DNA from: Elusimicrobia bacterium RIFOXYD2_FULL_34_15
GTDB taxonomy: Bacteria; Elusimicrobiota; UBA8919
NCBI GenBank assembly: GCA_001800605.1
Contig: MGVS01000009.1
Span: forward strand, 497-50,594
Direction of reading: 5' to 3'
DNA: 50,098 nucleotides
Shown here: piece by piece, positions 6,481 through 31,352 of the stretch
Layout of the letters: the number at the start of each line of letters is the position of its first letter
How positions within the stretch are numbered: position 1 is the first letter of the stretch
Made by a program: the position numbers and the translations under genes
The notes under the pieces: generated by a model
Database searches by the model: none
Seen by the model: only the letters and a program-made list of their open reading frames with translations
Told to the model about the DNA's origin: nothing

Positions 6481-6560
6481 CAGTAACGGGTAATGAGTAA
6501 TGGGTAATCCTTCGACAAGCTCAGGACAGGCTGAGTAATGGGTAAAGAGTAACGGGTAAG
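6481..6560. repeat. Dispersed repeat: GGGTAATGAGTAA phrases around a CTTCGACAAGCTCAGGAC core
   Basis: The stretch from 6504 to about 6547 matches 13764-13807 at all but a couple of positions. Flanking it are reiterated GGGTAATGAGTAA/AACGGGTAA phrases. A reverse-complement fragment of the same phrase family occurs near 10656-10672. It lies between the anti-sigma gene and the Spy-like gene and stops at that gene's ribosome binding site. Confidence 0.8.
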
Positions 6561-13749: not shown

Positions 13750-13812
13750 AAGGTAAGTAACGAGTAATCCTTCGACAAGCTCAGGACAGGCTGGGTAATG
13801 GGTAAAAAGTTA
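13750..13812. repeat. Second copy of the GGTAATGGGTAA / CTTCGACAAGCTCAGGAC repeat
   Basis: 13764-13807 matches 6504-6547 almost base for base and is likewise flanked by GTAACGAGTAA/GGGTAATGGGTAAA phrases. It follows the DUF3108-like gene directly. The rest of the gap up to the promoter at 13949 is AT-rich, with no gene visible. Confidence 0.8.
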
Positions 13813-17008: not shown

Positions 17009-17161
17009 ATGACAGAACAAGTACCGGGATTATCAGCAGAACAGATTTCAGTATTATTACAGATAATAAACAGAAGCACCTATGTTGGTGATCAAATTGA
17101 ATTTGTTACTGAATTAAAAAGAACGCTAATTGAGATGTTAAAGTCAAAACAAGGTCAATAA
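17009..17161 (+). CDS. Small hypothetical protein of 50 residues
   Basis: A short frame starts at an ATG preceded by a near-perfect AAGGAGG and encodes a 50-residue, probably helical protein (starts MTEQVPGLSAEQISVLLQII, ends IEMLKSKQGQ). It is 13 bases after the barrel gene and ends at the TAA just before the 110-bp palindromic element. The strong ribosome binding site and position in the operon argue it is real. Phage loci often carry a similar tiny helical protein next to fibre genes, but I do not recognise its family. Confidence 0.7.
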   Translation: MTEQVPGLSAEQISVLLQIINRSTYVGDQIEFVTELKRTLIEMLKSKQGQ

Positions 17162-17162
17162 A

Positions 17163-17272
17163 CCCCGTTAGAAAACAAAGTTTTCTAATGGTTCTGCGTA
17201 ATGGTGGCATTAAACCATTATTTACTTCACAATTTTACCACCGATTTTGTAAGTGGTTTTTCTCTAACTGGG
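17163..17272 (-). mobile_element. 110-bp palindrome-ended element (intergenic copy, inverse orientation)
   Basis: It begins CCCCGTTAGAAAAC and ends TTCTCTAACTGGG. Its reverse complement aligns along the full 110 bp with the element in glyS (29401-29510), sharing AGTTAGAGAAAA-CCAC, GTGGTAAA and TTGTGAAG in the same order. The flanks are A-rich. It begins one base after the stop codon of the 50-residue gene. Confidence 0.8.
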
Positions 17273-17301
17273 AAAATAATTTGATTTATCAATTTTGCTA
17301 G

Positions 17302-17340
17302 ATTTAAAAGCCCTAAAGTTTATTTTAAGGGCTTTTAAAT
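17302..17340 (+). terminator. Strong hairpin, probable terminator of the fibre/barrel transcript
   Basis: ATTTAAAAGCCCT (17302-17314) pairs with AGGGCTTTTAAAT (17328-17340) across a 13-base loop, ending in TTTT. It is 4 bases before the AGGAGG of the glycosyltransferase gene, so it could also modulate read-through into that gene. Confidence 0.65.
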
Positions 17341-21436: not shown

Positions 21437-21882
21437 TTAGATACGATTACACAGATTATAAAGGACGATTACACAGATTAAAACCTTTTCTGTTAGTTAT
21501 TTCCTTCATTTTTAATTTTGAATTTTTTTCGCCACTACTTCTTAGGCGAACCCGCCAACGACTTAGTGGCGGGAATTTTACCCCGATTAGAAAAATAATC
21601 AAGATAATTTTTAATCTGAAGGGATATATAACAAAGAAAGTATATATTTGCTATGTAGTTGTTATTATAATTTTTCTAACGGGGCTTAATTATCTTTATT
21701 CACAGGATAATCCGAAGACATACCGTGTTTGGATATGGCAGGAAAATAAAGATTGTTTGTGGAAAATAGCGGAAAAATTTTATGGGGACGGAAGAAAATG
21801 GACAATAATATATGAAGCAAACAAAAGTGAAATCGCAGATCCCAATAAAATATTTCCCAAACAGAGATTGATAATACCATGA
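21433..21882 (+). CDS. LysM-domain protein with repeat-derived N-terminal region
   Basis: The conserved part is the last 55 residues, a LysM-like peptidoglycan-binding domain (VWIWQENKDCLWKIAEKFYG, then WTIIYEANKS and PNKIFPKQRLIIP). A hydrophobic segment (YICYVVVIIIFLTGLNYLY) precedes it and could be a signal or anchor. The preceding 60 or so residues are encoded by GATTACACAGATTA repeats, a CGCCACTA/TAGTGGCG palindrome and CCCCGATTAG. The ATG at 21433 overlaps the aspS stop, but the true start may be downstream at a non-ATG codon. A GAAGG lies near 21619. Confidence 0.65.
   Translation: MIRYDYTDYKGRLHRLKPFLLVISFIFNFEFFSPLLLRRTRQRLSGGNFTPIRKIIKIIFNLKGYITKKVYICYVVVIIIFLTGLNYLYSQDNPKTYRVWIWQENKDCLWKIAEKFYGDGRKWTIIYEANKSEIADPNKIFPKQRLIIP
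21437..21571. repeat. GATTACACAGATTA tandem repeat and CGCCACTA palindrome
   Basis: GATTACACAGATTA-type units at about 21440-21453 and 21468-21481 are followed by CGCCACTA (21530-21537), then CCCGCC, then TAGTGGCGGG (21564-21573). The region overlaps the doubtful N-terminus of the LysM gene. Confidence 0.7.
21581..21684. mobile_element. Possible 104-bp CCCCGTTAG-type element inside the LysM frame
   Basis: It starts CCCCGATTAGAAAAAT and ends ATTTTTCTAACGGGG (final bases 21670-21684), so the outer ends are inverted repeats like those of the 110-bp elements. The internal sequence does not obviously match those copies. It stays open in the LysM gene frame and would encode much of the hydrophobic segment. 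Homology of the ends only. Confidence 0.4.
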
Positions 21883-21887
21883 TATTG

Positions 21888-22063
21888 TTGAAAAACCCCT
21901 GCCTGACGGTAGGCAGGCAACAATTTCTGATTTCACAGATTAAAGTTTAGATTACACAGGTTATGGTTCGACTTCGCTCACCACTTTGGGTTAGTCGTTA
22001 AATCTGCGTAATCGTTTTTAGAAATCTGTGTAATCAAGACCAGTTGATGGTTTTTTCAACGGG
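21888..22063. repeat. Composite repeat region between LysM gene and phoH
   Basis: GTTGAAAAACCCC (about 21887-21899) and GGTTTTTTCAACGGGG (about 22047-22062) bracket the gap as approximate inverted ends. Between them are CCTGCCT/AGGCAGG (21898-21917), GATTACACAGG and AATCTGCGTAATC/AATCTGTGTAATC. The repeat ends 7 bases before the phoH ATG with no Shine-Dalgarno. Confidence 0.6.
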
Positions 22064-28320: not shown

Positions 28321-29163
28321 ATGAATTTTCAAGAAATTATTTTTACGCTTACAAAGTTTTGGGCAAAGCAAGGCTGTGTAATTGTTCAACCTTATGATAT
28401 AGAAAAAGGTGCAGGTACATTTAATCCTGCCACTTTTTTAAGGTGTCTTGGGGAAAAGCCATGGTCTGCCGCATATGTCGAACCTTCCCGCAGGCCTACA
28501 GACGGAAGATACGGGGAGAATCCGAACCGTTTACAACATTATTATCAATTTCAGGCAGTATTGAAGCCTGCACCGAAAGATGTTCAAAAAATGTATTTAT
28601 CTTCACTTAGAGCCATTGGTCTTAATCCCGAAAAACATGATATTAGATTTGTTGAAGATGACTGGGAAAGCCCTACATTGGGCGCCTCCGGGCTTGGCTG
28701 GGAGGTTTGGTGTGACGGAATGGAGATAACCCAGTTTACATATTTTCAAAACATGGCAGGAATACAGCTAAATCCGATTACGGTTGAAATTACGTACGGG
28801 CTTGAACGGATTGCGATGTATATTCAAAAGAAAAAATCAGTTTATGATATTATGTGGAATGAAGAATTGAAATACGGCGATATTCATCTTGAGGATGAAA
28901 AACAATTTTCTAAATACAACTTTGAAGAAGCTGATGTAGAGCTTTTAAAAGAACTATTTGATAAATATGAAAAAGAATGTAAAACGCTTTTGTTAAAAAA
29001 TTTGATATTGCCGGCTTATGATTTTGTTATGAAAGTTTCGCATACATTTAATTTACTAGATGCAAGGCGTGCAATTTCTGTAAGCCAGCGTGTATCTTAC
29101 ATTACTAGGGTAAGAAATTTAGCGAGTGAAGTTGCAAGAAAGTATTTGGAAAATCAAAAATGA
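28321..29163 (+). CDS. glyQ: Glycyl-tRNA synthetase alpha subunit
   Basis: The 280-residue subunit carries the class II catalytic core: [18 protein letters not shown], then [39 protein letters not shown], and [17 protein letters not shown]. It pairs with GlyS as an alpha2-beta2 enzyme. Length is near the bacterial norm of about 290-300. The start lies 6 bases after the right end of the S23 cassette with no obvious Shine-Dalgarno. It overlaps glyS by ATGA. Confidence 0.96.
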
Positions 29164-31352
29164 GTAAAGATATATTATTAGAAATAGGAACCGAAGAAAT
29201 TCCGGCAGGATATATTGACGCTGCAATTGAGCAGCTGAAAGTAAAATCCGAGAATGAGCTGAAATCCGCACGACTGGGATATAAGAAAATAAACGTTTAT
29301 GCGACCTTGAGGCGGCTGGTTATATATGTAGAGGATGTTGCTGAACAACAGGCCGCATTTGAATCAGAAATCGCCGGGCCTGTCGCAAAAGTTGCGTTTA
29401 CCCCGTTAGAGAAAACCACCGACTTTGTGGGTGGTAAACCTTGTGAAGCAAGCGATAGTTTAACGCCGCCGTTAAATATAACCGATGGGAAAAAAAGTTC
29501 TCTAACGGGGTTTACATATGGAAAGCCGACGCAGGTAGCAGTAGGGTTTGCTAAAAAATATGGTGTAGATGTTTCTGAATTAATAATAAAAAATGAGCGC
29601 GTATATATATTAAAAAAAGAACCGGCATTAAAAACCGAAAACGTACTTGCCGGAATTTTCACAAAAATAATTTCTTCTTTAACATTTCCTAAAACTATGG
29701 TTTGGGAAATATCGCAATTTAGATTTGCCCGCCCAATAAGATGGATAGTCGCTTTGTACGGTAAAAAAGTTATAAAATTCCAGGTAGCCGATGTGAAGTC
29801 TTCAAATTTTACCTGCATTCGTTATTTTAAAAAAACTAAGATTAGTGACCCGCAAAAGTATATCATCATATTGAGAAATAAAAGTATTATTATAGAACCG
29901 TCAGTTAGAATTGAAATATTGAAAAAAACGGTTTCATCTCAGGTAAAAGGTAAAGGTGAAATTGTTAAAAGCGATGAAGTTTTTGAAACAGTTAATAATA
30001 TGATAGAATTTCCGACTGCTATTCTTTGCAAATTTGACGAGAAATTTCTGCATTTACCAAAAGAAATAATAATAAATACTCTGAAAAAACAAAAAGATTT
30101 TGTAATTATTGATTCTTCGGAGAATATCCTTCCATATTTTATAGGTGTAAAAGACGGTATTTCGACCAATATTGATATTATTCGTGAAGGTTTTGAAAAA
30201 GTAGTAGCAGCCCGCCTGGGAGATGCGGAATTTTATTTTAATAATGATATAAAAATAAAGTTAGAGGATAAGTTTGATAAATTAAAAGATATTACTTTTC
30301 AGGAAAAGCTTGGTACAATATTTGACAAAGTTCGGCGTATTGAGAAATTATCGGAATGGTTAAGCAATAATTCGTCTGTAAAAGAAAAAATAAATCCGGC
30401 TGATATTAGCCGTATATGCCATTTGTGTAAAATTGATTTATCAACCGAAATAGTTTCCGAATTTCCTGAATTTCAGGGTATTTTCGGCAAAATTTGCGCT
30501 CAAAAAAATAACGAAGAAAAACTTGTCTCAGACGGAATTGAGCAGCACTGGTGGCCGATAAATTATGACGGCAAAATTCCGGAATCATATGAAGCTTCTA
30601 TCATTTCTATTGCTGATAAAATTGATACTCTGGTTGGTGATTTTGCAATAGGCCTGGGTCCGACAGGTTCTAATGATCCGTATGGTTTAAGGCGGTTCGC
30701 TTTTGGTATAATAAAAATTGCGATAGAAAAAGAGATATCTTTTTCAATAAGGGAGTTAATAATTCAGTCAATTTCAAACCTTCCTTATAGAACAGATACC
30801 AATAAAGAACTTATTTTACAGATTGAAGATTTTTTAAAACAACGTTTAACTACCTATTTATTAGATAAAGGAATTAAAATTGACGAAATAGATTCTGTAT
30901 TATCAACGAAATTTACGGATATTCTGGATTCGTACCAATGTGTTGCTGCTGTTCACTCGATAAGAAATCTTGCGGATTTTGAACCGATTGCCGTTTCATT
31001 CAAGCGAATAGGCAACATATTGAAACAAGCAAATAGACAGGAAGTAGTGAGCGGGAAATGGGAAGTTGATGAAAAACTTCTCATAGAAACAGAAGAAAAG
31101 GAACTTTATGAAAAGTTTTCGGTAATAAAAAATAATGTTGAAATTTTTATTAATAACAATGATTATAAATTAGCACTCAAAGAATTGGTATCATTAAGAA
31201 CATTCGTTGATAATTTTTTTGAAAAAGTTCTTATTATGGATAAAGATGAAAGAATAAAAAATAACAGGGTGTCTCTATTAAAACTATTGCACAACGAATT
31301 TATTAAAATTGCAGATTTTTCTAAAATAGTTGTCGAAAAAGGTAATGTGTAA
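29160..31352 (+). CDS. glyS: Glycyl-tRNA synthetase beta subunit with 38-residue in-frame element insertion
   Basis: The 730-residue subunit has the GlyS N-terminal domain ([15 protein letters not shown]), an HD-like central domain (LADAEFYF-type segment, here [11 protein letters not shown]) and a C-terminal DALR anticodon-binding region. It binds and recognises tRNA-Gly. It is longer than the usual 690 or so residues because of about 38 residues (81-118) encoded by a palindromic element. The flanks, GPVAKVAF and [13 protein letters not shown], join to give the normal GlyS sequence (compare QAFDAEGKPSKAAEGWA in E. coli). The element's encoded peptide is polar and probably looped out. The stop codon overlaps a CRP-like site. 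Confidence 0.95.
29401..29510 (+). mobile_element. 110-bp palindrome-ended element inserted in frame within glyS
   Basis: It starts CCCCGTTAGAGAA and ends TTCTCTAACGGGG, a perfect 13-bp terminal inverted repeat. TTTA lies on both sides (29397-29400 and 29511-29514), as expected of a target duplication. 110 + 4 = 114 bp, exactly 38 codons, so the frame is kept. A diverged full-length copy is at 17163-17272. Confidence 0.87.

Follow-up and report, generated by a model that had tools for sequence, protein, structure and literature searches.

A decayed 110-bp palindromic element in an Elusimicrobia genome, its in-frame sister copy in glyS and a probable GIY-YIG mobiliser

The genome of Elusimicrobia bacterium RIFOXYD2_FULL_34_15 contains an intergenic 110-bp segment that an earlier note took to be an inverted, diverged and full-length second copy of an element inserted in glyS. 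This raises the question of whether the segment is a genuine transposition copy, and what enzyme could have moved it. We addressed both points in the 50,098-nucleotide stretch of DNA that carries the two copies (the window), in the rest of the assembly and in other genomes. The features of the window that are discussed below are the following:

17163 to 17272, minus strand: second copy, palindromic element family A, 110 bp, right-hand terminal repeat decayed
17159 to 17162, plus strand: left target site duplication (TSD) of the second copy, TAAA, assigned from the sequence and the TSD rule of the family
17273 to 17276, plus strand: right TSD of the second copy, AAAA, one mismatch relative to TAAA
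17009 to 17161, plus strand: upstream ORF, 50 codons, hypothetical, stop codon within the duplicated target
17237 to 17257, minus strand: hairpin 1 of the second copy, ACCAC...GTGGT, covarying helix in the family
17199 to 17220, minus strand: hairpin 2 of the second copy, TAATGG...CCATTA, covarying helix in the family
29401 to 29510, plus strand: first copy, in frame within glyS, encodes 37 residues between (F) and (FT)
29397 to 29400, plus strand: left TSD of the glyS copy, TTTA
29511 to 29514, plus strand: right TSD of the glyS copy, TTTA
29160 to 31352, plus strand: glyS, glycyl-tRNA synthetase beta subunit, 730 aa (NCBIfam TIGR00211, E 5e-202)

When read as its reverse complement, the second copy runs from CCCAGTTAGAGAAAAACCACTTACAAAATCGGTGGTAAAATTGTGAAG to TTTTCTAACGGGG and the glyS element from CCCCGTTAGAGAAAACCACCGACTTTGTGGGTGGTAAACCTTGTGAAG to TTCTCTAACGGGG, each over 110 bp, so the position, inverse orientation and equal length that had been described are correct, as are the internal phrases GTGGTAAA and TTGTGAAG common to both. 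The end-to-end match is equally clear, with a local alignment score of 100 where the maximum among 300 shuffles is 33, and a global alignment gives 71% identity (79 of 111 columns), in keeping with a diverged copy. Specifically, the interiors without the terminal 14 bp at each end still score 56, as compared with at most 35 in 5,000 shuffles. Because the interior score lies above that of every shuffle, the reading that similarity is confined to the terminal repeats fails.

The flanks of the second copy are also informative. The TAA stop of the upstream ORF, which has no Pfam match, occupies positions 17159-17161 and is followed by a single A at 17162, after which the element begins with CCCCGTTAGA; the segment thus starts one base after a stop codon, as had been noted. 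At its far end the terminal repeat is mutated, reading TCTAACTGGG on the plus strand, and AAAA comes next. TAAA and AAAA represent a 4-bp target duplication carrying one mutation and read TTTT...TTTA on the strand of the element, which is the same target as the TTTA...TTTA of the glyS copy. What had been seen as a possible TTTA-like flank is the target duplication itself, overlapping the stop codon. Since the TAA of the upstream ORF lies inside the duplicated target, the stop of this ORF was preserved. The TPLE...SLTG frame of the second copy holds a stop (NRW*NCEVNNGLMPPL...), which renders this copy untranslatable, unlike the copy in glyS.

The insertion in glyS, an essential gene, comprises 110 + 4 bp, or 38 codons, in frame and with perfect TTTA flanks. 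It is absent from all 12 relatives compared, among them a same-genus genome with a 78% identical protein, where the empty site reads VAYLNGQP as against VAF[...]TYGKP at the filled site. Filled and empty sites differ by the insert plus its TSD and by nothing else. This empty-site evidence comes from the glyS copy alone, as the neighbourhood of the second copy is not conserved in the relatives examined and the downstream glycosyltransferase gene was not detected in the same-genus genome and was recovered, in part, in just one of seven relatives, a poor synteny that renders an empty site unreadable at this position. The segment at 17163-17272 is a real, old and decayed transposition copy.

The two copies belong to a dispersed family, as had been proposed. 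The end motif TCTAACGGGG occurs 71 times in the 2.47-Mb draft genome versus 2 times for its reversed control, with 44 elements located among the fetched stretches of this genome, these genome-wide counts being based on pattern searches and fetched stretches. Several palindromic families, mostly of 82-124 bp, share these ends. They include a third family A copy that is 75% identical and lies within a TMEM260-like gene (C79:7003-7112), as well as a related 101-bp element within a DUF2344 gene (contig C44). A scan of 84,980 species genomes with the pattern CCCCGTTAGAGA-N75-104-TCTCTAACGGGG returned at least 114 stretches, and the matches listed come from Omnitrophota, Elusimicrobiota, Planctomycetota, Patescibacteria, Deltaproteobacteria, Nitrospirae, Auribacterota and others. 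Among the matches listed from other genomes, the four flanking bases are identical on both sides in 77 of 115 elements, where 17 are expected and 200 shuffles yield at most 25, and five flanking bases match in just 3 of the 115. The duplicated sequence follows the consensus YNNR and is mostly TAAA or TTTA. As these flanks are direct and not inverted, they constitute a target duplication rather than a longer terminal repeat. The terminal inverted repeats themselves form a 12-bp outer stem that is kept in 99.5% of cells across 31 copies. Terminal inverted repeats, a fixed 4-bp TSD, many copies and no transposase of their own are the features of miniature inverted-repeat elements (MITEs).

Other repeat arrangements were also recorded. 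Palindromes of different families directly adjoin one another at three loci (L052 3179-3386, L058 1575-1782 and L059 1473-1681), where each has inserted in the TAAG/CTTA flank of its neighbour, which suggests that ends or flanks attract further insertions. Segments of 103-106 bp with imperfect CCCGTTTAGA...TCTAACGGGG ends (window 21582-21684, L018 1405-1510 and L055 1488-1593) are located in front of genes, and the peptide that they encode is hydrophobic, leader-like and ends in FLTG. These segments were first taken for a further palindromic family (family D); their upstream flank is conserved too, so they may not be mobile copies, and this suggests that family D is the leader of a family of paralogous genes. 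A different dispersed repeat, CCTTCGACAAGCTCAGGACAGGCTGAGTAATGGG, is present at window positions 6496-6550 and 13756-13810 in copies that are 93% identical, and a further one, GATTACACAGATTA, has inverted copies at 21445-21482 and 21998-22035 of the window and also occurs at about 1660-1730 of L056, contig C58.

Among the matches listed, 40 copies outscore every shuffled-interior control and were assigned to family A. Judged by their record titles, they come from at least five phyla (Omnitrophota, Deltaproteobacteria, Elusimicrobiota, Nitrospirae and Auribacterota), and nearly all have the same orientation relative to the TTTA flank. The length plus 4 is divisible by 3 in 33 of the 40 copies, copies from the same genome not being independent, and the lengths that violate this rule all fall outside the in-frame set. 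Of the 40 copies, 11 lie in frame within long ORFs. The elements are read in two recurring frames, F-TPLE...SLTG-FT and L-NPVR...SNGV-N, and the hosts of in-frame elements (family A and others with the same ends) include a ProB-like kinase (L171), a MiaB-like enzyme (L184), a multihaem cytochrome (L139), a poly-A polymerase/CCA enzyme (L170), an RNase R-like protein (L087), porphobilinogen deaminase (L115), a glycosyltransferase (L151), a transglutaminase (L152) and a trypsin-like protease (L161). The kinase, the MiaB-like enzyme, the transglutaminase, the protease and the glycosyltransferase are among the hosts of family A itself. In the deltaproteobacterial genome Meg22_1012_Bin_121, family A is present in many nearly identical copies, the majority of which have a fixed stop in the coding frame (L082, L084, L093, L105, L118, L125, L135 and L138), and these probably represent a recent burst of a non-coding lineage.

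The two inner hairpins of family A covary, with 45 double-changed cells against 13.6 in shuffled data (0/500), and most of this signal is lost when the hairpin partner is slid. Covariation of the hairpins suggests that the ability of the single strand, whether DNA or RNA, to fold has been maintained. The predicted RNA fold of the second copy is likewise strong (z -4.5). This fold, the location directly after a stop codon and the covariation across phyla would also be expected of a functional intergenic RNA or a terminator kept by selection and not by mobility. We give this explanation almost no credence, as a U-tract is absent after the hairpin on the plus strand, a separate terminator-like hairpin is present at about 17307-17340, a scan found no terminator arising from the interior of the element, relatives are located within glyS and ten other coding regions, the neighbourhood is unconserved and an Rfam scan of the window gave no match. 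The family extends beyond this genome to at least five phyla, with the YNNR TSD, the covarying hairpins and a relative that bears a nuclease.

This nuclease-bearing relative is a 277-bp element on another contig of the assembly (C103:5666-5942), where CCCCGTTAGAGATTAGTTTATG...AAACGCTTCCTATCTCTAACGGGG enclose the gene for a GIY-YIG protein of about 86 aa, with the right terminal repeat encoding its C-terminus, KRFLSLTG. Both ends of this element recur in the commonest palindromes of this genome, the left one as CCCCGTTAGAGATTAGTTT in some of them and the right one as CGCTTCCTATCTCTAACGGGG. Overall, nuclease-bearing elements with CCCCGTTAGAGA repeats measure 265-338 bp and have a small GIY-YIG nuclease as their sole ORF; its start codon is found some 13-28 nt inside the left repeat, and its last residues, LSLTG, are encoded by the right repeat. 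The protein matches Pfam PF01541 (E 1.5e-14) and, below the cut-off, an NCBIfam group I intron endonuclease profile, and the catalytic residues Y5, Y16-x-G18, R26, H30 and E62 are present in 33 of the 34 rows of the alignment, and the remaining row had been badly extracted. A search of 46 palindrome-carrying genomes yielded nucleases that are 65-72% identical and have the same ends, from Omnitrophota, Ratteibacteria, Planctomycetota and Patescibacteria. Strong terminal inverted repeats with scores of 10-16 flank 24 of 31 GIY-YIG homologues, as against at most 9 for slid controls at these loci, and more than ten terminal-repeat types each enclose just a GIY-YIG ORF, those of diverged homologues including CCCGTTACAAATC, CCCCGTTAGACCT, CCCTGTTAAATAA, CCCCGCACCTTTTTAC, CCAAATTTTCAGC (two copies in one genome) and CCCCACACCTCATTAGGT.

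Contig C103 is 100% identical over at least 2.35 kb to the same-genus genome whose glyS is 78% identical, the shared stretch (G000:C103 and G339:C14; L194, L195) being a sugar-epimerase locus that includes the nuclease element. Such identity, set against the divergence in glyS, may reflect either a recent transfer of this nuclease element or misbinning of the contig.

The stop codon of the nuclease is frequently external to the element. Specifically, a TAAA, TGAA, TGAT or TGAG target after the right end supplies TAA or TGA, and with TTTA or TTCA targets the nuclease ORF reads through into the host gene. Three such fusions are with prepilin genes and coincide exactly with the G-FTLIE processing site (L198, L200 and L217). 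Here the LTG at the end of the element is followed by FTLIE or FTFIE of the host, so that insertion rebuilds the G-FT peptidase site. Insertions at prepilin processing sites are independent, with GIY-YIG elements at L198, L200/L103 and L217 and palindromes at L164 4270-4382 and L103 2897-3466. The palindromes also lie at stop codons, with the duplicated target holding the stop of an ORF of at least 80 codons in 22 of 123 palindromes versus 2.3% of TRAR sites. The second copy, with its 50-codon upstream ORF, is a shorter-ORF case of these stop-in-target insertions.

Not all relatives of the nuclease reside between such repeats. No terminal repeats were found at the homologues L209, L212, L216, L218 and L225, indicating that membership of this protein family does not always entail terminal repeats, and some homologues sit by tRNA genes. 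Small repeat-less GIY-YIG ORFs adjoin tRNA genes at L188, L191 and L186 in this genome (contigs C31, C77 and C97) and at L216 and L218 elsewhere, and at L188 and L191 the ORF is flanked on either side by tRNA-Asp/tRNA-Ser-like fragments, as if the nuclease gene had entered a tRNA gene and restored it. These duplicated tRNA fragments, and the classical association of the GIY-YIG fold with homing nucleases (PMC1564403), are what would be expected if a free-standing homing endonuclease had spread and the palindromes were its repair scars or recognition sites. We nevertheless consider homing-type spread very unlikely. Homing involves a single cognate site and no TSD, whereas the insertions described here occupy many scattered and unrelated sites with an exact 4-bp TSD and fixed repeats, and the filled glyS site differs from the empty one by insert and TSD only.

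A second alternative is that the 110-bp elements are conventional MITEs moved by an ordinary transposase and that the GIY-YIG ORF is a passenger, or a selfish nuclease, using the same ends. Terminal repeats with a short fixed target duplication are indeed typical of DDE transposons, and many palindromes occur in two genomes, G326 (48 matches) and G113 (22 matches), that have no nuclease hit at 1e-14; in these genomes the nuclease may have been lost or left unassembled, or a different mobiliser may operate. However, the fetched loci contain only three repeat pairs that are 400-4000 bp apart and none of these encloses a transposase, and no DDE, HUH, serine or tyrosine transposase lies between the ends of repeat pairs within 4 kb. 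The GIY-YIG ORF is the sole nuclease between or beside such ends in these loci, and a passenger would have had to join each of the more than ten repeat types independently. Altogether we regard a conventional transposase as an unlikely mobiliser. A 1,428-bp repeat pair on C58, considered as a candidate, proved to be a short hairpin with a distant and unrelated end and not a hidden transposon. Within the phylum of this genome, nuclease and palindromes co-occur in 4 genomes versus 0.6 expected (Fisher p 0.0014), a significant but modest effect that is uncorrected for shared ancestry. The interiors of family A are not recognisable as deletion derivatives of the nuclease ORF, such that the link between the two kinds of element consists of their shared ends only.

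We therefore favour, as quite likely, a model in which the 110-bp element is a non-autonomous, MITE-like element mobilised in trans by a GIY-YIG mini-transposon. The main argument for assigning this role to the nuclease is that the GIY-YIG ORF recurs while the ends change. In this model the family would be mobilised in trans by a very compact autonomous transposon that shares its terminal repeats and 4-bp YNNR TSD and has as its sole gene a nuclease of about 86 aa, the stop codon of which is often supplied by the duplicated target (TAAA or TGAA). We infer that the nuclease cuts the target and/or the ends and acts on the 110-bp elements, which would make it the mobiliser and these elements its non-autonomous passengers. 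At the second copy, a family A element would have inserted at a TAAA site that included the TAA stop of the upstream ORF, the ORF would have kept its stop, and the copy would have decayed later. Harmless insertion would be favoured by ends that are open in two frames (TPLE...SLTG and NPVR...SNGV) and by a TSD that regenerates stops. It is on balance probable that these elements represent a novel class of bacterial DNA transposons whose whole transposition enzyme is a lone GIY-YIG domain of about 86 residues, with a C-terminus encoded by the element end and a stop borrowed from the target, and that they drive swarms of palindromic satellites that cross phyla and enter essential genes in frame.

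Regarding known systems, the closest description is that of the Rickettsia palindromic elements (RPEs), palindromes of about 100-150 bp found in frame in unrelated genes with a recurring peptide and described, as far as the account in PMC10969869 goes, from Rickettsia only. Family A resembles them by description, in that 11 of its 40 copies lie in frame within genes with a recurring TPLE...SLTG peptide, although the window copy itself is non-coding. It differs in having defined repeats, a 4-bp YNNR TSD, a candidate enzyme and representatives in at least five phyla. To our knowledge no mobiliser or target duplication has been established for the in-frame palindromes of Rickettsia. The likeness to prokaryotic MITEs lies in the short length, the lack of a transposase gene, the terminal inverted repeats, the TSD, the many copies and a presumed movement in trans, but the ends here are shared with an element that encodes only a GIY-YIG protein and not with a known IS family, and in-frame copies are unusually frequent. 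Searches of open-licence papers for MITEs in Omnitrophica or Elusimicrobia and for the motif CTAACGGGG returned nothing relevant.

GIY-YIG nucleases are reported in homing elements, restriction enzymes and retroelements in the accounts given by PMC1564403 and PMC3846280, and the open-licence literature searched yielded no GIY-YIG DNA transposon. Homing endonucleases of the I-TevI type and the free-standing Seg type have the same catalytic domain and residues as the nuclease described here, which differs from them in being a single domain of about 86 aa without a DNA-binding tail, bounded by repeats and TSDs and located at scattered sites; according to PMC1564403, homing enzymes differ from transposases in that they do not recognise the mobile DNA to which they belong. 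Penelope-like retroelements are described as using a GIY-YIG endonuclease (PMC3846280), but these are eukaryotic and have a reverse transcriptase, which is absent here. In REP/RAYT systems, too, short dispersed palindromes are accompanied by a small gene for a nuclease-like partner, whereas here there is no Y1 transposase between the ends and there is a real 4-bp TSD instead.

Thus, the 110-bp element is of a palindromic, MITE-like kind that is already known, and its putative nuclease parent would be a new class. The family exhibits the same in-frame palindrome behaviour outside Rickettsia, with defined ends, a TSD, an empty site in glyS and a candidate enzyme, and it suggests a route by which segments such as TPLEK...SLTG could enter unrelated proteins. 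If the model is true, transposition by a GIY-YIG domain alone would add a nuclease fold to the few known transposition chemistries, the element of about 277 bp would be among the smallest autonomous DNA transposons, and in-frame palindromic elements of the Rickettsia type would gain a mechanism.
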